DNA of 23,557 bases from a virus. The stretch lies in IMG/VR virus record IMGVR_UViG_3300030380_000952, positions 1,909 through 25,465 of that record. One strand, given 5' to 3'. Below, one piece after another: positions 4,525 through 23,557 of this stretch. How positions within the stretch are numbered: position 1 is the first letter of the stretch; every line of letters begins with the position of its first letter. Under the pieces are notes generated by a model that did no database searches, had not been told where the DNA came from, and saw nothing but the letters and a program-made list of their open reading frames with translations. A program made the position numbers and the translations under genes.

Positions 4525-4534
4525 TTAATTAACA

Positions 4535-4561
4535 GGGGGTGTTTAAACGCCCCCATTTTAT
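4535..4561 (+). terminator. GC hairpin with GTTTAAAC in the loop, then U-rich
   Basis: GGGGGT (4535-4540) and GCCCCC (4549-4554) pair (one T-G pair), with the palindrome GTTTAAAC (4541-4548) as the loop/upper stem, followed by ATTTTAT. This looks like an intrinsic terminator, or attenuator, after the SprT-like gene. The palindrome can itself fold or pair between molecules. Confidence 0.6.
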
Positions 4562-4573
4562 AGGAAAAATATT

Positions 4574-4651
4574 ATGAATATAAAAGATACTTTAACTGAA
4601 ACGCTAGAAGAGTTAGACATATTCGAGGGCGAGGAAGTAGAACTCAGCTAG
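4574..4651 (+). CDS. Possible 25-aa acidic peptide
   Basis: A short open frame MNIKDTLTETLEELDIFEGE ending EVELS, with a weak AGGA site upstream. It is acidic and probably one amphipathic helix. It lies between the terminator-like hairpin and a second hairpin, where a real gene or a leader peptide would fit. Function unknown; the short length leaves real doubt. Confidence 0.4.
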   Translation: MNIKDTLTETLEELDIFEGEEVELS

Positions 4652-4657
4652 ACTAAC

Positions 4658-4696
4658 ACCACCAAGACAAGCTCCTTAACTGGGGCTTTAGGTGGT
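4658..4696 (+). ncRNA. Two-tier hairpin, copy 1
   Basis: Outer stem ACCACC (4658-4663) with GGTGGT (4691-4696); inner stem AAGCTCC (4669-4675) with GGGGCTT (4682-4688), loop TTAACT. The 3' flank is AGAAAC. The same architecture and flank recur at 4920-4960, with different stem bases. Each copy follows one small gene and precedes the next, so it is either a processing or termination element or a small structured RNA. Confidence 0.5.
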
Positions 4697-4725
4697 AGAA
4701 ACATATACAAATTAAAGGAGATATT

Positions 4726-4914
4726 ATGTTAGAACTAATAAACAGAGCTAAAAAAGAAATAGAATTATTAAATGTGATTTGTTCATCTGACAATTTAGAG
4801 CCTAACCCATCAGATATAAGCATGGCACAAGATGAGATTATACTTTTAGAAACTTACATTAAAAAAGAAAACTTTACCGATCTAAAAGAATACTTTGATA
4901 TTATAGACGGATAA
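4726..4914 (+). CDS. Hypothetical protein, 62 aa
   Basis: Unrecognised. Clear AAAGGAG site before the ATG. The protein is acidic and mostly helical: MLELINRAKKEIELLNVICS, then SMAQDEIILLETYIKKENFT and a final DLKEYFDIIDG, suggesting two or three helices. It is flanked on both sides by the paralogous hairpins at 4658-4696 and 4920-4960, an arrangement that suggests the gene-plus-hairpin unit could move or be regulated as a cassette. Confidence 0.72.
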   Translation: MLELINRAKKEIELLNVICSSDNLEPNPSDISMAQDEIILLETYIKKENFTDLKEYFDIIDG

Positions 4915-4919
4915 AAGAC

Positions 4920-4960
4920 ACCACGTTTAAACGCCCCGATTTATTTGGGGCTTTCGTGGT
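4920..4960 (+). ncRNA. Two-tier hairpin, copy 2, containing GTTTAAAC
   Basis: Outer stem ACCACG (4920-4925) with CGTGGT (4955-4960); inner stem GCCCC (4933-4937) with GGGGC (4947-4951), extended by AAA/TTT with a bulged C. GTTTAAAC (4925-4932) spans the junction of the two stems. The 3' flank AGAAAC-TAT matches copy 1. Compensated differences between the copies (ACCACC/GGTGGT versus ACCACG/CGTGGT) support a real RNA structure. Confidence 0.55.
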
Positions 4961-4968
4961 AGAAACTA

Positions 4969-4997
4969 TTGACAATCATTTAATATTATGATTCAAT
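4969..4997 (+). promoter_or_regulatory. Extended -10 promoter
   Basis: TTGACA (4969-4974), 17 bp, TTCAAT (4992-4997) with TGA directly before the -10 (extended -10). It would start transcription near 5004 and serve the genes from 5033 on. Confidence 0.6.
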
Positions 4998-5032
4998 ATA
5001 CAAACTAATAAAACCTTAAGGAGGTTACAAAA

Positions 5033-5326
5033 ATGAAAGTAGAAAATTTATTCAACCCTGACACAGGCAACGATGTTGCAAATCAGTTTAGAATTTATAC
5101 AGGTAAAGGAGTTATATTTCAATCATATGAAACAACTATTTGCATAAAAGAAAACGGAAAAGTATTTTTAAATAATGCAAAGTTAAAAGACTTGCAGAAT
5201 AAACAGGCTTGGAAATCCTCGAGGACTACTAGCAAATGGTTAAGAATATTTTTAAATGAAGATAAAGAAACCATTGATAATAAAATAGCAAGTGGCGAGT
5301 ACATATTAACAGACTTAAACAAATAG
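5033..5326 (+). CDS. Phage protein of unknown function, 97 aa
   Basis: Start preceded by AAGGAGG. The pattern VANQFRIYTGKGVIFQSYET, then a beta-rich middle, then SSRTTSKWLRIFL and an acidic KETIDNKIASGEYILTDLN, matches a short phage protein family I have seen in unrelated phages ('ANQF...G..FQSY...RTT.K...FL...T...I..G.Y...dLN'); I do not know its function. It is probably a small beta-rich fold. It ends in TAGGAGGAC, so its stop overlaps the ribosome-binding site of the next gene, followed by a GTTTAAAC copy. Confidence 0.8.
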   Translation: MKVENLFNPDTGNDVANQFRIYTGKGVIFQSYETTICIKENGKVFLNNAKLKDLQNKQAWKSSRTTSKWLRIFLNEDKETIDNKIASGEYILTDLNK

Positions 5327-5340
5327 GAGGACGTTTAAAC

Positions 5341-5511
5341 ATGACGACTAAAAAAATATTTGGTGTACCTTTCAGAGGTTGGAGAGAAGAGACAAGACTA
5401 TTCAAGCAGGACTTGGCAAGGATGCAAGGGCTTGAATGGGTGAGTTGGTTTATCCTCAAACCTCTAGCAGTACTTATATTAATAGCATTACTAATCAATG
5501 GAGGTGTTTAA
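5341..5511 (+). CDS. Small membrane protein, 56 aa
   Basis: Begins MTTKKIFGVPFRGWREETRL, a basic, partly amphipathic N-terminus, and ends in a hydrophobic segment WFILKPLAVLILIALLING of about 20 residues, so a single C-terminal membrane span with the N-terminus in the cytoplasm is likely. The start is set by the composite GGAGGAC-GTTTAAAC-ATG. The last codons are GGA GGT GTT TAA, so the C-terminus, the next ribosome-binding site (GGAGG) and a GTTTAAAC copy are all the same bases. No function assigned; early phage membrane proteins often act on host processes. Confidence 0.7.
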   Translation: MTTKKIFGVPFRGWREETRLFKQDLARMQGLEWVSWFILKPLAVLILIALLINGGV

Positions 5512-5516
5512 ACGCT

Positions 5517-5771
5517 ATGAAAACTTTACAACTTACAAACGGAGAGATTGTTTATCTAATAAAGGCAACTAATACAAGGTGGTCAAAGGTTGATAAACGT
5601 TTAAGAATTTTAGACAGCATGACGGAGCAAGAGATTGCAAACCATGATGCAGAGCTAGAGGGCTTAGAGTTTTTTAAGCATGGTGAGGAGGTAGCCTTTC
5701 ACAGTAAAGAGAGACGAGAGCTTGAGCAATTGGAAACTTATTTAGAAACTAAATTATCGGAGGTAGTTTAA
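5517..5771 (+). CDS. Hypothetical protein, 84 aa
   Basis: Unrecognised. The ATG at 5517 follows GGAGGT-GTTTAAAC-GCT. The N-terminal half MKTLQLTNGEIVYLIKATNT looks like a small beta-strand pair (a type often seen in short phage early proteins), and the C-terminal half is a charged helix (SKERRELEQLETYLETKLSE). It ends ...GTA GTT TAA, with the stop inside the GTTTAAAC copy at 5766-5773, and its last codons contain the GGAGG for the next gene. Confidence 0.72.
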   Translation: MKTLQLTNGEIVYLIKATNTRWSKVDKRLRILDSMTEQEIANHDAELEGLEFFKHGEEVAFHSKERRELEQLETYLETKLSEVV

Positions 5772-5773
5772 AC

Positions 5774-5929
5774 ATGATGTATATAAAAATATTATATCTA
5801 ATTATATTTAAAATGTTAGGTATCAAAGTTCCTTACCCTGTAAATATGACAGTCGTTGAGGTCAGTAAAATAAATTGTAAGCCAAACTATAAATTAGTTA
5901 GGAAGATTTTAAAATGGGAGGACGTTTAA
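5774..5929 (+). CDS. Hypothetical protein, 51 aa
   Basis: Start ATGATG directly after GGAGGTA-GTTTAAAC. The N-terminal part MMYIKILYLIIFKMLGIKVP is hydrophobic and may bind or insert in the membrane; the rest (VVEVSKINCKPNYKLVRKIL) is polar. It ends TGGGAGGAC-GTT-TAA, with the next ribosome-binding site and palindrome inside its 3' end. Unrecognised. Confidence 0.62.
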   Translation: MMYIKILYLIIFKMLGIKVPYPVNMTVVEVSKINCKPNYKLVRKILKWEDV

Positions 5930-5931
5930 AC

Positions 5932-6000
5932 ATGATGCCTTGTATTATCACTGGAATTTATATTATAATTGGAACAGGTGTTGCGATATGGTTTGATTAA
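5932..6000 (+). CDS. Possible 22-aa membrane peptide
   Basis: The frame MMPCIITGIYIIIGTGVAIW-FD is almost wholly hydrophobic. Despite its length it has the full junction GGAGGAC-GTTTAAAC-ATG used by its neighbours, which argues that it is translated. A single-span membrane micropeptide is the likely product. Confidence 0.5.
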   Translation: MMPCIITGIYIIIGTGVAIWFD

Positions 6001-6269
6001 CTCTAAAACTTTGATAGCTTCTAAGCCTTTGATAACTGTGTCAAGGGCTGAAGTCGTTTAAATATTTACAAGCTCTTAGAGTGGACGAGAGGAGACGAGA
6101 GAGGGTGTTTAAACGCAGTCATTTAATTACAATTTAAGAGGGTAAAAATTGGTAGTGTTTAAACGCTTGTCAATAGAAAAAAAATTAATTTAATTATTTT
6201 TAATTTAGTTATTGACAGACGATTAAAAGTATGGCTTAATTACAAAATAAAAAATTGAGGACTATTAAT
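6001..6269 (+). other. Gene-free stretch with two GTTTAAAC copies
   Basis: No gene is seen. It holds two CTTTGATA repeats (about 6009 and 6027), a purine-rich GAGACGAGAG run, GTTTAAAC at 6107 and 6157, a very A/T-rich block (6177-6210) and, at its right end, a promoter. It reads as a control region between two blocks of small genes. Confidence 0.55.
6212..6240 (+). promoter_or_regulatory. Extended -10 promoter
   Basis: TTGACA (6212-6217), 17 bp, CTTAAT (6235-6240) with TGG before it. The AAAAGTATG before the -10 matches the promoters at 8940 and 11228. An A/T block just upstream may act as an UP element. Confidence 0.6.
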
Positions 6270-6440
6270 ATGAAAATAAAAAGAGTAAGCAGATATACAT
6301 TCGACAAGGACGGACACCCTATTAATAAGAGAGGGAAAAGATTGACGAATAAAATTACAGCTACGTTTAAACACTCTCCGTATAATGCAGGGGCTAGGGT
6401 AATGTGGGATACATTTGCAAAGGAGGAGGTTGTAAAATGA
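6270..6440 (+). CDS. Small basic protein, 56 aa
   Basis: Unrecognised. ATG at 6270 after a GAGG site; an earlier TTG at 6255 is possible but less likely. The protein MKIKRVSRYTFDKDGHPINK continues with RGKRLTNKITATFKHSPYN and is strongly basic, suggesting nucleic-acid contact. A GTTTAAAC copy (6365-6372) is read as Phe-Lys inside it. The stop TGA overlaps the next ATG (ATGA), so the two are coupled. Confidence 0.68.
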   Translation: MKIKRVSRYTFDKDGHPINKRGKRLTNKITATFKHSPYNAGARVMWDTFAKEEVVK

Positions 6441-6625
6441 AAGTTAAAATGATTTGGTATGAATTGGTTAAGCGAGAAGATATATTAGAAGTTGATTCGT
6501 TAGATGAAGCATACGATACCGAAATAGTTTTTGGTAATGGAGAAGAAGTATCTACTTCTTTACATTGGTCAGATCAAATACAACACATAGTTATAGATGA
6601 GGAGAACGAAGATGAAAAAATTTAA
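6437..6625 (+). CDS. Acidic hypothetical protein, 62 aa
   Basis: Start ATG 6437 after GGAGGAGG. The sequence MKVKMIWYELVKREDILEVD goes on to a beta-strand-like middle and ends HIVIDEENEDEKI. The acidic tail is produced by the next gene's ribosome-binding cassette (GGAGAACGAAGATGA) being read in this frame. Function unknown; it overlaps the next gene by 14 nt. Confidence 0.7.
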   Translation: MKVKMIWYELVKREDILEVDSLDEAYDTEIVFGNGEEVSTSLHWSDQIQHIVIDEENEDEKI

Positions 6626-7049
6626 AACTCAAGCAGAAGATCATTCTATTACAACAACGCTTAATGTTGTTGCAAGTCCATCTTCTATATGGGCAGTTGA
6701 TTATGATATGTTTAAAGAATTCTTTGTAAAAGAAGGATTTGATACAAAAGCAGACTGGGAAGATTATCTTAATTATTTTGAAGATTGTGATTCAGACTGG
6801 ATTAATGATATAGCAGAATTTTATAACTTAGGTTGGGATTATATAGACCCAGACAATGGACGTTGCAAAGGCAACGATTATTTTGTTTTATATTTAAAGG
6901 AGAACGAAGATGAATAAATCAGAAATGATTGCAGAGATTGAAAGTCTTTGCAAAGCAAATAAAAATAATCCTTACTGCTCTGTATATTGGTTAGCAGATA
7001 TGATTAAGGAAGTTGTTGATAGTACAGATTTAAAGGAGAACGAAGATGA
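6601..7049 (+). repeat. Repeated ribosome-binding cassette GGAGAACGAAGATGA
   Basis: The 15-mer GGAGAACGAAGATGA is at 6601-6615, 6899-6913 and 7035-7049, each containing the ribosome-binding site and ATG of a gene. The last two share 21 identical bases starting with TTTAAAG. A shortened form GGAGAACAAATGA is at 7349-7361. Each full copy also encodes the ENEDE tail of the gene upstream. Confidence 0.8.
6612..6917 (+). CDS. Acidic hypothetical protein, 101 aa
   Basis: Unrecognised. The ATG at 6612 follows the GGAGAACGAAG cassette. Very acidic and aromatic (WAVDYDMFKEFF, ADWEDYLNYFEDCDSDW, YNLGWDYIDPDNG), which could make it a DNA mimic or a protein binder, though nothing more specific can be said. 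It ends LKENEDE, again encoded by the following gene's ribosome-binding cassette, and overlaps that gene by 8 nt. Confidence 0.7.
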   Translation: MKKFKTQAEDHSITTTLNVVASPSSIWAVDYDMFKEFFVKEGFDTKADWEDYLNYFEDCDSDWINDIAEFYNLGWDYIDPDNGRCKGNDYFVLYLKENEDE

Positions 7050-7053
7050 GTAG
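6910..7053 (+). CDS. Hypothetical protein, 47 aa
   Basis: The frame MNKSEMIAEIESLCKANKNN continues PYCSVYWLADMIKEVVDST and ends DLKENEDE, the same C-terminus as the previous protein because the same ribosome-binding cassette is read through. Probably two helices. It overlaps both neighbours by 8 nt. Function unknown. Confidence 0.65.
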   Translation: MNKSEMIAEIESLCKANKNNPYCSVYWLADMIKEVVDSTDLKENEDE

Positions 7054-7276
7054 AACAAATTTAAATTATAAGAACGCTAGTCACACAGATTTAATCTATG
7101 GCTTGATGCTGATATGGAAACAGAGAGTGGATGCAGGGCTTGATGATAGTGAGATAGTAGATGATTGTGTAGACGAGAGCTACATTAAAGATTTATTATT
7201 TGACTTGAGTCATTTATGTGATGAGTATGCTATTGATTTAGAGCAACTCTTTGACCAAGTAAAGGGTAGTGTTTAA
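7046..7276 (+). CDS. Acidic hypothetical protein, 76 aa
   Basis: Unrecognised. Begins MSRTNLNYKNASHTDLIYGL and is then acidic and helical (DDSEIVDDCVDESYIKDLLF, DLSHLCDEYAIDLEQLFDQV). It ends KGSV with the stop inside the GTTTAAAC copy at 7271-7278. The start lies in the third copy of the ribosome-binding cassette. A small helical bundle is likely; the high acidity matches its neighbours. Confidence 0.7.
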   Translation: MSRTNLNYKNASHTDLIYGLMLIWKQRVDAGLDDSEIVDDCVDESYIKDLLFDLSHLCDEYAIDLEQLFDQVKGSV

Positions 7277-7305
7277 ACGCTATGAAAAATAATTTAAAAA
7301 AGTGC

Positions 7306-8182: not shown

Positions 8183-8223
8183 TTGTTACACAATTGTTAC
8201 ATAACTGTAACACAAATGTAACA
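8183..8223. promoter_or_regulatory. Four-site operator array, 11-bp period
   Basis: TGTTACA at 8184-8190 and 8195-8201, and its reverse complement TGTAACA at 8206-8212 and 8217-8223. Start positions step by exactly 11 bp, so all four sites face the same side of the helix, in a two-right, two-left arrangement centred near 8203. It lies directly upstream of a -10 element with no recognisable -35, which is where an activator would bind. Confidence 0.75.
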
Positions 8224-8229
8224 TTCGTA

Positions 8230-8238
8230 TGGTTAAAT
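8230..8238 (+). promoter_or_regulatory. Extended -10 element, no clear -35
   Basis: TGG followed by TTAAAT (8233-8238), like the TGG-CTTAAT at 6232. No TTGACA-like box is at the right distance; the heptamer array occupies that place. Predicted start about 8245, at the base of the first RNA helix. Confidence 0.4.
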
Positions 8239-8242
8239 AGAT

Positions 8243-8461
8243 TTTGTAGTTAGGAGTGAGCCTTTGTAAAATCCCTACCCTCTATTAAATTAGAGTAGAC
8301 AAGAGATAGGGTTAAGGATAAAAGTAAATGAGAACTAAACCACCATGCACTAACTACAAATTTGTCCGAGGAAAGAAGGACAAAACTCTTGAGAGCCTAG
8401 AGCAAGAGTATAATTCCGAGATAGGCAGTAGTTGGTAGACCTGCTTAAAAAAACTACCACC
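8243..8461 (+). ncRNA. Candidate structured RNA with pseudoknot, about 219 nt
   Basis: No gene fits in this stretch, but the RNA folds well by eye. Closing helix: 8243-8253 (TTTGTAGTTAG) with 8350-8360, 11 perfect pairs. Inside: 8261-8264 with 8314-8317, 8273-8277 (CCCTA) with 8307-8311, 8280-8284 (CTCTA) with 8291-8295. Stacked directly after the closing helix: 8361-8367 (TTTGTCC) with 8378-8384, 7 pairs, loop GAGGAAAGAA. Next: 8385-8391 (ACTCTTG) with 8403-8409, 7 pairs, whose loop has GCCTA (8395-8399) complementary to TAGGC (8422-8426), a pseudoknot. Last: 8433-8438 (TGGTAG) with 8454-8459. I recognise no known RNA family. It could be an independent RNA or a 5' leader controlling the gene at 8483. 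Confidence 0.6.
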
Positions 8462-8482
8462 TAATTTTAAAGGAGGAACGAT

Positions 8483-8701
8483 ATGAGTAGAGTGTATAAT
8501 ACTTATTGTGATACAAGAGACGATATCTATATTGCAATGGGAGATGCAGGATTAAGTGAGGGACTGTTTAAACAACTTCACAATGAGCAGGGCAGAGATG
8601 CTGTTGCTTATATTATTAGAGGACAACTAAACAAAGAGCCAATCTTTTTTGACGAAGCTCTTGACCAAATAATAAAGGAGGTAAATGATGAGTACAAATA
8701 A
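8483..8701 (+). CDS. Hypothetical protein, 72 aa
   Basis: Unrecognised. AAGGAGGAACG before the ATG, which starts 22 nt after the structured RNA candidate. The sequence MSRVYNTYCDTRDDIYIAMG continues DAGLSEGLFKQLHNEQGRDA and QLNKEPIFFDEALDQIIKEV: mainly helical. GTTTAAAC (8566-8573) is read as Phe-Lys within it. If the upstream RNA is a riboswitch-like leader, this gene and the next are its targets (inference). Its 3' end overlaps the next gene. Confidence 0.7.
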   Translation: MSRVYNTYCDTRDDIYIAMGDAGLSEGLFKQLHNEQGRDAVAYIIRGQLNKEPIFFDEALDQIIKEVNDEYK

Positions 8702-15399: not shown

Positions 15400-15907
15400 T
15401 AAACATTGTATAGACTGTTCTACATTATTAGTATTAGAAGAAAACTGGACACAGGCTAGATTAGAACAAGGAAAATATGTTTGTAAACCTTGTTGGCATG
15501 TAAGAGATTCTCACCGAATGTATGTTAACGGTAAACATATATCAGTAAAACATCCATTACATAAGCCGGGAAAATTTAAAACTTTTGAAGATGCAGCCTT
15601 TAGTTCATTGTCTAGATACACTACGTCTTCAGAAGGAGAAGTGTATATCATAACTAATCCTGCTTGGAAAGGCTGGATTAAAGTTGGTATGGCTATTGAT
15701 TCTGAAGATAGATGTAAAGGTTACCAAACATCTAGCCCCTTACGAGATTTTAAATTAAAGTTTAAAAAATACTTTGATGATAGACGAACTGCTGAACAAA
15801 CAGCCCATACTTTATGTGCTAAGAAAGCAGACAAACGTAAAGGCGAATGGTTTAAGTTAGATATAAAGATAGCAAAAGATATAATAAATAACATGGAGGT
15901 CGTTTAA
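15386..15907 (+). CDS. GIY-YIG (T5orf172/Mug113-like) protein with zinc motif
   Basis: 173 aa, GTG start at 15386 after GGGAGGGA. Two CxxC pairs (C8/C11, C33/C36) form a probable zinc finger. Residues ~84-160 have the T5orf172-type GIY-YIG pattern: GEVYIIT, then GWIKVG, a conserved Arg (R109 in SEDRCKGYQ), TAEQTAH (E127) and the final GEWFKL. Such proteins are putative nucleases; this one sits between polymerase and exonuclease genes, a usual place for free-standing homing-type nucleases but also for replication nucleases. Its frame ends GGAGGTC-GTTTAAAC, giving ...Val-Val-stop and the next gene's start block. Confidence 0.8.
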   Translation: MKHIDKHCIDCSTLLVLEENWTQARLEQGKYVCKPCWHVRDSHRMYVNGKHISVKHPLHKPGKFKTFEDAAFSSLSRYTTSSEGEVYIITNPAWKGWIKVGMAIDSEDRCKGYQTSSPLRDFKLKFKKYFDDRRTAEQTAHTLCAKKADKRKGEWFKLDIKIAKDIINNMEVV

Positions 15908-15909
15908 AC

Positions 15910-16782
15910 ATGGCTAAATCAAAGAAAACTCTTGACACACTGGTCGAAGATATATATAATAAGATAGGTGTACTTGCTGATGGTGAGCATATTGACTTAG
16001 ACGAGGACACCATTGAACAGTTTGGAGAATCCATGAAAGAGATTCTTTACAGTTGGTCACACCCTGAACCACGTGGTAAGTCTACTCTTCGTATGTCTAA
16101 CATAGGGAAGAAAGAAAGACAGCTATGGTTTGACATGAAGACTGAAGGTACGCCTGAAAGGATGCCACCCTCTTTATTTATTAAGTTCTTATACGGGCAC
16201 TTGCTTGAAGAGATTGTGTTGTTTTTAATAAAGCTATCAGGACATACAGTTACTAGTGAACAAAAAGAAGTTACAGTATCAGGCATCAAAGGACACATGG
16301 ACTGTGTTATTGATGGTGAGGTAGTAGATATCAAGACAGCTTCAGGCTTTGCCTTCAAGAAGTTTAAAGATGGAACACTAGCAGAGAATGATATCTTTGG
16401 ATACATGGCTCAACTTGCAGGATACGAATCAGCAGAAGGTACAAGCAATGGTGGGTTCTTAGCTTTAAATAAAGAGTCAGGTGAGTTAGCTTTATACAAG
16501 CCAGATAACTTTGACAAGCCTAACATCAAGAAGAAAATAAGGGATGTTAAAGCAGCAGTAAAGCTGGACAAGCCACCTAATTTATGTTATAATCCTATAC
16601 CTGATGGCAAGTCTGGTAACATGCAACTACCTAGAGAGTGTGTATATTGCAGACATAAGTTTGAATGTCATAAAGATTCTAATGAAGGTAAAGGTTTAAG
16701 AGTATTTAAATATTCTAATGGACTAAGATACTTAACTCAAGTACCTAAAGTTCCTAATGTCATAGAGGTGACACAAGTATGA
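15910..16782 (+). CDS. PD-(D/E)XK exonuclease, Cas4/RecB-like, Fe-S type
   Basis: 290 aa. Start block GGAGGTC-GTTTAAAC-ATG. The nuclease core is GHLLEE (~96-101), GHMDCVIDGEVVDIKTAS (D131, D140, K142) and QLAGY (Q168, Y172), the RecB-family motifs. The C-terminus has C236, then C254-x2-C257-x5-C263; the last three match the C-x2-C-x5-C of AddB/Cas4-type Fe-S nucleases, so a 4Fe-4S cluster is probable. It likely degrades host DNA or processes replication and recombination ends, the role of gp6 in T7. The next gene overlaps through ATGA. Confidence 0.87.
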   Translation: MAKSKKTLDTLVEDIYNKIGVLADGEHIDLDEDTIEQFGESMKEILYSWSHPEPRGKSTLRMSNIGKKERQLWFDMKTEGTPERMPPSLFIKFLYGHLLEEIVLFLIKLSGHTVTSEQKEVTVSGIKGHMDCVIDGEVVDIKTASGFAFKKFKDGTLAENDIFGYMAQLAGYESAEGTSNGGFLALNKESGELALYKPDNFDKPNIKKKIRDVKAAVKLDKPPNLCYNPIPDGKSGNMQLPRECVYCRHKFECHKDSNEGKGLRVFKYSNGLRYLTQVPKVPNVIEVTQV

Positions 16783-21676: not shown

Positions 21677-22078
21677 TTATTTATTTTGCCAATCTTCAAT
21701 GGCTTTTTTTATACTTTCTTCTGCTAACACACTACAATGTAATTTTATAGGTGGTAGCTCTAGTGAATCTGCTATGTCTTTATCTTTAATTGCCATAGCT
21801 TCTTCGATTGTTTTGCCTTTTAACATATCAACAAACATGGTGCTTGATGCAATGGCTGAACCACAACCATAAGTTTTAAACTTAACATCATCAATAATAT
21901 GTCTGTTGCCTTGAAGCTTACATTTAATTTGTAACTTCATAACATCACCACAAGCTGGTGCACCTACAAGACCAGTACCCACATCTAAATCTTTAGGGTC
22001 AAACCTACCCACTGAATATTTATCAGGGTTATTTAAAACTCCTTCAAACCTATCTACAACTTTACTTGAGTATGCCAT
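21677..22078 (-). CDS. iscU: IscU-type iron-sulfur cluster scaffold
   Basis: 133 aa, full length for the family (about 128 aa). The scaffold cysteines are C43 in GAPACGDVM, C72 in KTYGCGSAIAS and C115 in LHCSVLAE, with D45 and H114 also kept, so all known cluster-binding residues are present. The LPPIK motif (108-112), which the HscA/HscB chaperones recognise in IscU, is intact. Two short insertions distinguish it from bacterial IscU, after residue ~12 and before residue ~60. It is the only visible Fe-S gene; no iscS or iscA lies near. A host-derived auxiliary gene is the obvious reading. It lies in the leftward late-type operon, its start overlapping the upstream stop (TAATG). Confidence 0.94.
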   Translation of the reverse strand: MAYSSKVVDRFEGVLNNPDKYSVGRFDPKDLDVGTGLVGAPACGDVMKLQIKCKLQGNRHIIDDVKFKTYGCGSAIASSTMFVDMLKGKTIEEAMAIKDKDIADSLELPPIKLHCSVLAEESIKKAIEDWQNK

Positions 22079-22279: not shown

Positions 22280-23557
22280 TTATAGTGGTGGTTGTAGTTG
22301 TTTCATTTCAGTTAGAGTTTCTAAACTTTGTCCTGCCATCTGATAAAACCCTTCTATGTTATCTGATAATATACTATCTGTATAAATAGATGTAGGTTCA
22401 TACCACACATCTTGGTCCGGCATTGTAACTAACCTATAGTTATTAAAGTTAGGAACAAACCCCATGTAAGCTATGATAGTATTCTCTGACCCATACTGTC
22501 CTGTTTCTTCTTGTTTAGCTTCAACATCATCTTGAGCAGCTTGTAGGTTTTGTGCTATAATATTTTCTACTAACTGTTCAGCATCCGTATCTCCACTGTT
22601 AGAAACAGACACATCAATTTGATTTTGAATACTATTATTTGTATTAGTATTAGAACTAAATGTTGTGCTTGTTACAGAACTCATATTAGAATCTACTGAG
22701 TTTGTTGAAGTTGCAGTAGCTGTAACCGTTGTACTCATGTCTAATAATTGATTTGTTTGTGCAGTCGAAGATGAAAACTGGTCAGATATACTAGGTGAAT
22801 TACTAATACTTCCTGTTGCACTAGCTGATGTTGAACCGGATGTCGATAAGTTTGAGCTAGAGTTTGTTGATGTATTACCACCTGTTGTCGTGTATATGCT
22901 TTCTCTTGCTGCTTTAATTGTAGATGCAACAACAGCTAACGACTTTTCTTTTGTTAAACTAGAACCTTTTTCTTCAGCAACAAGTTCTTCTTCCTCTATC
23001 TCTTCTTCTATAACTTCTTCTTCTTCAACAAGTTCTTCAATAAGTTCTTCCTCCTGTTCCTCTGCATACGCAAGTTCTTCTTCCACAATTGTCTCTTCCT
23101 CAAACCACTCCTCCATTTCTTCAATAAATGTTTCTTGAAATACAAACTCTTCAATCATTAAATCTTCAATAGGTATAAAGACTTCTTCGTCACGTATGAA
23201 TGGTAGAGGTTCTATAAATTCTTCTAGTGGTTGTAGTTGTTCAAAGATTATTTCTTCTACAAATATTAACTCAGGCTCTTCAAAAATGTCATACTCAGGT
23301 TCAAAGATATACTCTTCAAATATTTCTGGCTCTTCAAAAGTGTCATACATGTCATACTCTTCATAACCATAATCAAACAGTTCTTCTTCGTATCCGTAGT
23401 CAAAGTATTCTTCTTCTTGGTAGTATCCTATATCTTCTTCTTGTCTGTAGCCTTGACAGAATGGTCCATACTGTGGGTCTAGGTCACATTGAAAATCATC
23501 ATAGGCTTCCCAGTACCCTGCACAGCTTAAATCATTTAAAGGATTACTACAGTCAAT
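22280..23557 (-). CDS. Acidic low-complexity protein, 5' end beyond window
   Basis: The frame is open through the right edge (425 codons visible), so the ATG at 23350 is not the real start. The first visible part is Cys/aromatic-rich (IDCSNPLNDLSCAGYWEAYD, then QCDLDPQYGPFCQGY), then comes about 150 residues of Glu-rich sequence with repeated FEEPEIF-like units, then ~120 residues rich in Ser, Thr and Asn, and a C-terminal conserved-looking part (IIAYMGFVPNF, MPDQDVWYEPTSIYTDS, FYQMAGQSLETLTEMKQLQP). I recall related marine phage proteins and assume a virion protein. Strong negative charge may counter basic DNA-binding proteins or interact with divalent ions. Confidence 0.85.
   Translation of the reverse strand: MDCSNPLNDLSCAGYWEAYDDFQCDLDPQYGPFCQGYRQEEDIGYYQEEEYFDYGYEEELFDYGYEEYDMYDTFEEPEIFEEYIFEPEYDIFEEPELIFVEEIIFEQLQPLEEFIEPLPFIRDEEVFIPIEDLMIEEFVFQETFIEEMEEWFEEETIVEEELAYAEEQEEELIEELVEEEEVIEEEIEEEELVAEEKGSSLTKEKSLAVVASTIKAARESIYTTTGGNTSTNSSSNLSTSGSTSASATGSISNSPSISDQFSSSTAQTNQLLDMSTTVTATATSTNSVDSNMSSVTSTTFSSNTNTNNSIQNQIDVSVSNSGDTDAEQLVENIIAQNLQAAQDDVEAKQEETGQYGSENTIIAYMGFVPNFNNYRLVTMPDQDVWYEPTSIYTDSILSDNIEGFYQMAGQSLETLTEMKQLQPPL

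Follow-up and report, generated by a model that had tools for sequence, protein, structure and literature searches.

Positions 8243–8461 of the window, that is, of the whole 23,557-nucleotide stretch of viral DNA analysed here (positions 1,909 to 25,465 of IMG/VR record IMGVR_UViG_3300030380_000952), carry a phage structured RNA of unusual mosaic build that belongs to none of the Rfam families tested. It consists of a three-way-junction core of ~118 nt (8243–8360) followed by a hairpin and two H-type pseudoknots. An earlier note on this DNA had proposed a new structured RNA at this site, and the proposal is borne out by covariation in helices P1, P2 and P4, by the lack of any Rfam match and by its absence from the named phages searched; the RNA is real and probably functions as an independent molecule. 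Uncultured marine phages thereby gain an RNA family absent from Rfam, one whose arms are swapped while its core stays fixed, an uncommon trait among structured RNAs, and whose covariance model makes it searchable in metatranscriptomes at once.

The core, delimited on the + strand by a match to our covariance model R1 (8232–8367, 133.9 bits) and by covariation, is a junction of P1, P2/P3 and P4. P1 is an 11-bp helix between UUUGUAGUUAG (8243–8253) and CUAACUACAAA (8350–8360). In P2 the strand AGCCUU (8259–8264) pairs with 8314–8319, with one G–A mismatch in the window, and the exchangeable arm P3 (8273–8311), predicted from the sequence, has an outer stem CCCUA/UAGGG (8273–8277/8307–8311) and an inner hairpin (8280–8284/8291–8295). 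P4 (8324–8348) is a short stem (8324–8326/8346–8348) carrying a 19-nt loop, AAUGAGAACUAAACCACCA (8327–8345). This loop is near-invariant across the members, as is the unpaired part of the core as a whole, whereas the arms change fast. The region had been described as free of genes, and indeed no likely gene lies within 8183–8482.

Three modules follow on the + strand. M1 (8361–8384; stem 8361–8367/8378–8384) is the 7-bp hairpin that had been read as stacked on the long helix; it begins immediately 3′ of P1 and is optional in relatives. M2 (8385–8426) is the second 7-bp hairpin (8385–8391/8403–8409), the loop of which pairs downstream as proposed, GCCUA (8395–8399) with UAGGC (8422–8426). M3 (8428–8459) includes the terminal 6-bp stem (8433–8438/8454–8459); this stem is present, but what had been taken for a plain hairpin is half of an H-type pseudoknot, which has a further stem (8428–8431/8441–8444) and an A-rich loop (8445–8453). 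Thus every helix proposed earlier (the 11-bp P1, two 7-bp hairpins and the 6-bp stem) is where it had been placed, while P2, the variable P3 arm and P4 of the core had been overlooked.

In both M2 and M3, two interlocked stems are maintained by compensatory change. The first pair of the M2 pseudoknot stem occurs across relatives as C–G, U–A, A–U, G–C and G–U, and the second stem of M2 as GCCUA/UAGGC, CCCUA/UAGGG, ACCUA/UAGGU and UCCUA/UAGGA. Both M3 stems vary together, the first in many forms (e.g. ACAG/CUGU, CAAG/CUUG, CCAC/GUGG, GUAG/CUAC), with none of 2000 shuffles as good; these stems were parsed by script, the first being misaligned in MAFFT alignment A4. Other members carry different modules behind the core, or none. 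The 63 distinct elements compared combine a near-invariant core with 20 P3 types and 19 module strings; one of the P3 types is joined to ten of these strings, and another to four P1 types. Simple pattern matching in the loci retrieved places the modules other than M3 almost exclusively in the vicinity of the core. M3-type pseudoknots also stand alone, away from the core and before other genes (L060:3212, L087:5131, L096:7439, L104:1211, L129:4367), and may represent a small RNA element distinct from the present one.

Relatives were gathered through primase-helicase homologues and motif scans of IMG/VR, which placed the element in over 100 contigs. An iterated profile gave 133 loci fit for use, among them 73 distinct cores, and R1, a covariance model as the earlier note had called for, recovered these and 49 further loci; some loci are the same contig seen twice, so that locus counts exceed contig counts. 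The final set comprises 121 aligned members with 108 distinct cores, leaving out two chance matches (second matches in L107 and L060; E about 0.5).

Folding alone is unconvincing, as the energy of 8243–8461 stands out little from shuffles (z −1.96; 8 of 200 equally good), and it is covariation that settles the reality of the structure. The compensatory-change comparison suggested earlier gave a clear answer: the covariation score exceeded all 500 shuffles and all slid versions in a 60-sequence MAFFT alignment, in a 74-sequence covariance-model alignment and in 36 held-out members. These 36, which lay outside model building, scored 0.343, where shuffles gave 0.141 and slid versions no more than 0.053; their alignment was fitted to the model and hence leans towards the structure, but the unfitted MAFFT alignment also beats all shuffles. 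Since the shuffles disregard the relatedness of the sequences, shuffle counts are not to be read as probabilities. In the 74-sequence alignment, two-sided changes occur at 9 of the 11 P1 pairs (one pair is UA in 50 members, GC in 15, CG in 5 and AU in 1) and at five of six P2 pairs. P2 takes forms such as AGCC/GGCU, AGUC/GACU and AGCUUU/AAAGUU; its second pair is, in the window as in most members, a G–A mismatch. P4 varies likewise, from GUA/UGC in the window to GUA/UAC, CACG/CGUG, CAUG/CAUG and CACA/UGUG. G–U pairs outnumber A–C mismatches by 115 to 2, an asymmetry which shows that the + strand is the folded RNA and is under selection.

The element occurs exactly once per contig in all 37 contigs scanned whole, yet in many surroundings: 45 upstream context classes, and 30 first-downstream-gene families among 80 distinct proteins behind it. 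Its carriers belong to at least two unrelated families with few genes in common. Family A consists of podoviruses whose replication module is T7-like; among named phages they stand closest to Pelagibacter phages HTVC103P/104P/115P (helicase 45–48% identical). Here the RNA lies either 3–5 kb ahead of the helicase or in the gap separating it from SSB. Members of family B share a terminase that closely resembles the ones in Pelagibacter phages HTVC023P/027P and phage 023Pt_psg01. Relatives of both families infect Pelagibacter. The P3 arm of the window is nearly identical to that of L105, whose shared genes put it in family B, and this indicates transfer between families. No protein family is common to all nine core-bearing contigs compared, several of which are fragments, so that a shared protein may have been missed. 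That families almost devoid of common genes nevertheless share this RNA suggests that its target lies in the host, and offers a testable route to a new phage–host interaction. Searches of HTVC103P, 104P, 115P, 023P, 027P, 023Pt_psg01 and DSL-LC04 gave no match better than E 0.8. As for cellular copies, 59 loci among the matches listed for an unspecific 17-base motif in a genome collection yielded nothing convincing to the covariance model (best E 0.09), and a search of 32 genomes of one order, run without a positive control, found no DNA match, so that cellular copies may still occur. The window itself encodes a complete NifU/IscU-like iron-sulphur scaffold protein (21677–22078, − strand; PF01592, E 4.5e-37), up to 67% identical to many alphaproteobacterial proteins; this similarity is not decisive for the identity of the host.

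The reader of the sequence had recognised no known RNA class, and the suggested Rfam scan agrees: at Rfam 15 gathering thresholds there is no match in the window or in ten relatives, nor on the core in nine further relatives, and a permissive search of the region returned a lone chance snoRNA match (E 2.4). RNase P, riboswitches and ornate RNAs are set aside for want of an Rfam match, tmRNA and tRNA because ARAGORN found no tRNA-like domain in the window, and membership in GOLLD or ROOL because the covariance models of those families do not match. A gene-specific riboswitch or leader is at odds with the 30 downstream gene families, which tie the element to no one gene or pathway. The literature covered, mainly papers outside subscription, contains no description of this RNA.

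GOLLD and ROOL are large ornate RNAs of phages and prophages; GOLLD has a conserved and a less conserved part, many examples being at least 800 nt long (PMC12286853). Like GOLLD and ROOL, our RNA is phage-encoded with an elaborate fold that includes pseudoknots (PMC12286853); unlike them, it spans about 110–500 nt, as against at least 800 for many GOLLD RNAs, has another conserved core and is accompanied by no tRNA gene in the window. By analogy, it may work like such ornate RNAs, though it is not one of them. M3 shares with the T4/T2 gene 32 leader pseudoknot (PMC3014915) its H-type topology and the AU-rich leader with a ribosome-binding site that follows, but is an optional module behind a larger core, before many unrelated genes. 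Promoter–stem-loop cassettes (PeSL), in which a promoter and a structured element are shuffled among gene contexts, are reportedly found in T4-type phages. The present element resembles them in coupling a promoter to a structured element in shuffled contexts, and differs in its single copy per genome, its complex covarying core and the phages concerned.

Upstream of the window's RNA, four tandem TGTNACA boxes at an exact 11-bp spacing (8184, 8195, 8206 and 8217; array 8184–8223) account for four of the nine such boxes in the window. They resemble an operator array or iterons, and similar TGTCACA arrays precede the RNA in window-type relatives; we regard them as the probable operator of the promoter. 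A −10-like TATGGT (8228–8233, + strand; TATGAT in relatives), the promoter role of which is inferred, makes a transcript start near 8240–8243 plausible. Other members have quite different sigma70-like promoters, which end a few bases 5′ of P1, and a −10 match is present in 33 of 92 distinct flanks against a 17% background. In six loci (L053, L083, L084, L150, L161, L190) a Shine-Dalgarno sequence and a four-codon frame (ATG TTA ATA TAG or similar) end just 5′ of P1; this may be a mini-ORF or simply a −10-like sequence. On the 3′ side, L175 and L180 show the order terminator and promoter, core, terminator, and in L099 and L149 the core is flanked by promoter and terminator. In the window, as in most other members, no terminator separates the RNA from the next gene. 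A T-run after P1 is enriched (24 of 77 distinct flanks against an 8% background) yet is not a general terminator, and terminators in the window show no excess over shuffles. Most members have the ribosome-binding site of the next gene directly 3′ of the element, the last element lying ~10–15 nt 5′ of the Shine-Dalgarno sequence in the window and most relatives. In the window that sequence is AGGAGG (8471–8476, + strand), and the frame it serves (8483–8701, + strand; 72 aa) has no Pfam or PHROG match and is not conserved behind the RNA in relatives.

Of the two readings offered in the earlier note, an independent RNA of the phage is favoured over a leader of the genes from 8483 by gene contexts, copy number and the promoter–core–terminator arrangements in L175/L180 and L099/L149. 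Our preferred reading, to which we give somewhat less than even confidence on sequence evidence, is a single-copy phage-encoded RNA that acts in trans on a host factor, with the core junction and P4 loop as the putative binding part. It draws on the covariation, the G–U/A–C asymmetry, the invariant core against fast-changing arms, the one copy, the many contexts and the two families. A self-contained, gene-independent, single-copy RNA with a conserved unpaired core suggests that the target is not the adjacent gene but, in the simplest case, some component of the host, as the phages share little else; that the nine contigs compared have no protein family in common is likewise what leads us to a host partner. 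The folded unit is bounded by P1 and combines the near-invariant junction with exchangeable arms (P3, M1, M2, M3 and others). It would be transcribed from the promoter ending just 5′ of P1; the conserved junction and P4 loop would bind a host protein, RNA or small molecule, the pseudoknot arms might stabilise the RNA or adapt it to changing targets, and where a terminator is absent, processing or decay would part it from the downstream mRNA. A search of the window for an antisense target of the P4 loop matched the loop itself alone. A bolder version, which we consider unlikely, is a new class of mosaic phage RNAs whose constant core acts on a conserved host component and whose shuffled pseudoknot arms are swapped between unrelated phages; such an RNA would counter the machinery or the defences of the host, either as an effector or as a decoy.

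The independent reading is weakened by the position of most copies, which stand right in front of a ribosome-binding site with no terminator in between, and for the same reason a leader role for the genes from 8483 retains an appreciable minority share of our confidence. In this main rival, a cis-acting leader, the core would serve as sensor of a ligand or of a protein, and M3 or P1, whichever comes last, would control how the following gene or operon is translated, or its stability, somewhat like the T4 gene 32 pseudoknot. The usual adjacency to the ribosome-binding site (~10–15 nt to the Shine-Dalgarno sequence), the promoters ending just before P1 and the likeness of M3 with its AU-rich leader to the gene 32 operator all recommend it. 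It sits poorly with 30 different downstream gene families, with L175 and L099, where the element runs into terminators and not a gene, and with the single copy per genome; moreover, phage intergenic regions are short, so proximity to a Shine-Dalgarno sequence is expected anyway.

It is improbable that these are mobile regulatory cassettes, comparable to those reported for T4-type phages, which would serve mainly as recombination substrates for gene exchange. Element boundaries that coincide with P1, the many contexts, the shuffled arms and the M3-like elements elsewhere in the genomes would fit, but each contig has exactly one core, and a near-invariant unpaired core together with the G–U/A–C asymmetry bespeaks selection on RNA that a DNA recombination site would not need.

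HK022 put RNA, ~70 nt with two stem-loops, needs no phage protein (PMC9378689). Our element resembles put (PMC9378689) as a structured RNA shortly behind a phage promoter, independent of the following genes, and in family A it stands ahead of long operons; an analogous role in cis, in which the RNA would bind host RNA polymerase and allow passage through the terminators of the following operon, is nevertheless very unlikely. The core is a three-way junction with modules, a terminator lies immediately behind it in L175 and L099, the window has no excess of terminators, and in L086 one small gene follows and then convergent genes. Least probable of all is a replication origin transcript or primer: one element per genome, four 11-bp repeats just upstream and, in part of family A, an adjoining primase-helicase gene would suit a single-copy origin of iterons, promoter and structured RNA, but the iterons occur in one subgroup only, the two families share few genes and differ in their replication genes, and the shift in the window's GC skew goes with gene strand and falls near 4 kb instead of at 8.2 kb.

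Some further features of these contigs deserve mention. The palindrome GTTTAAAC recurs in intergenic stretches of the window (4534–7281 and 15885–15912), often between Shine-Dalgarno sequence and start codon (GGAGGACGTTTAAACATG) or within a terminator-like hairpin. In the phage contig L099, the Rfam Trp operon leader matches 2064–2163 (− strand) with a score below the threshold (31.3 bits, E 0.0069). Finally, the window encodes at 22280–23350 (− strand) a 356-aa protein, matched by no Pfam or PHROG family, in which a long Glu-rich stretch is followed by one rich in Ser, Thr and Asn.
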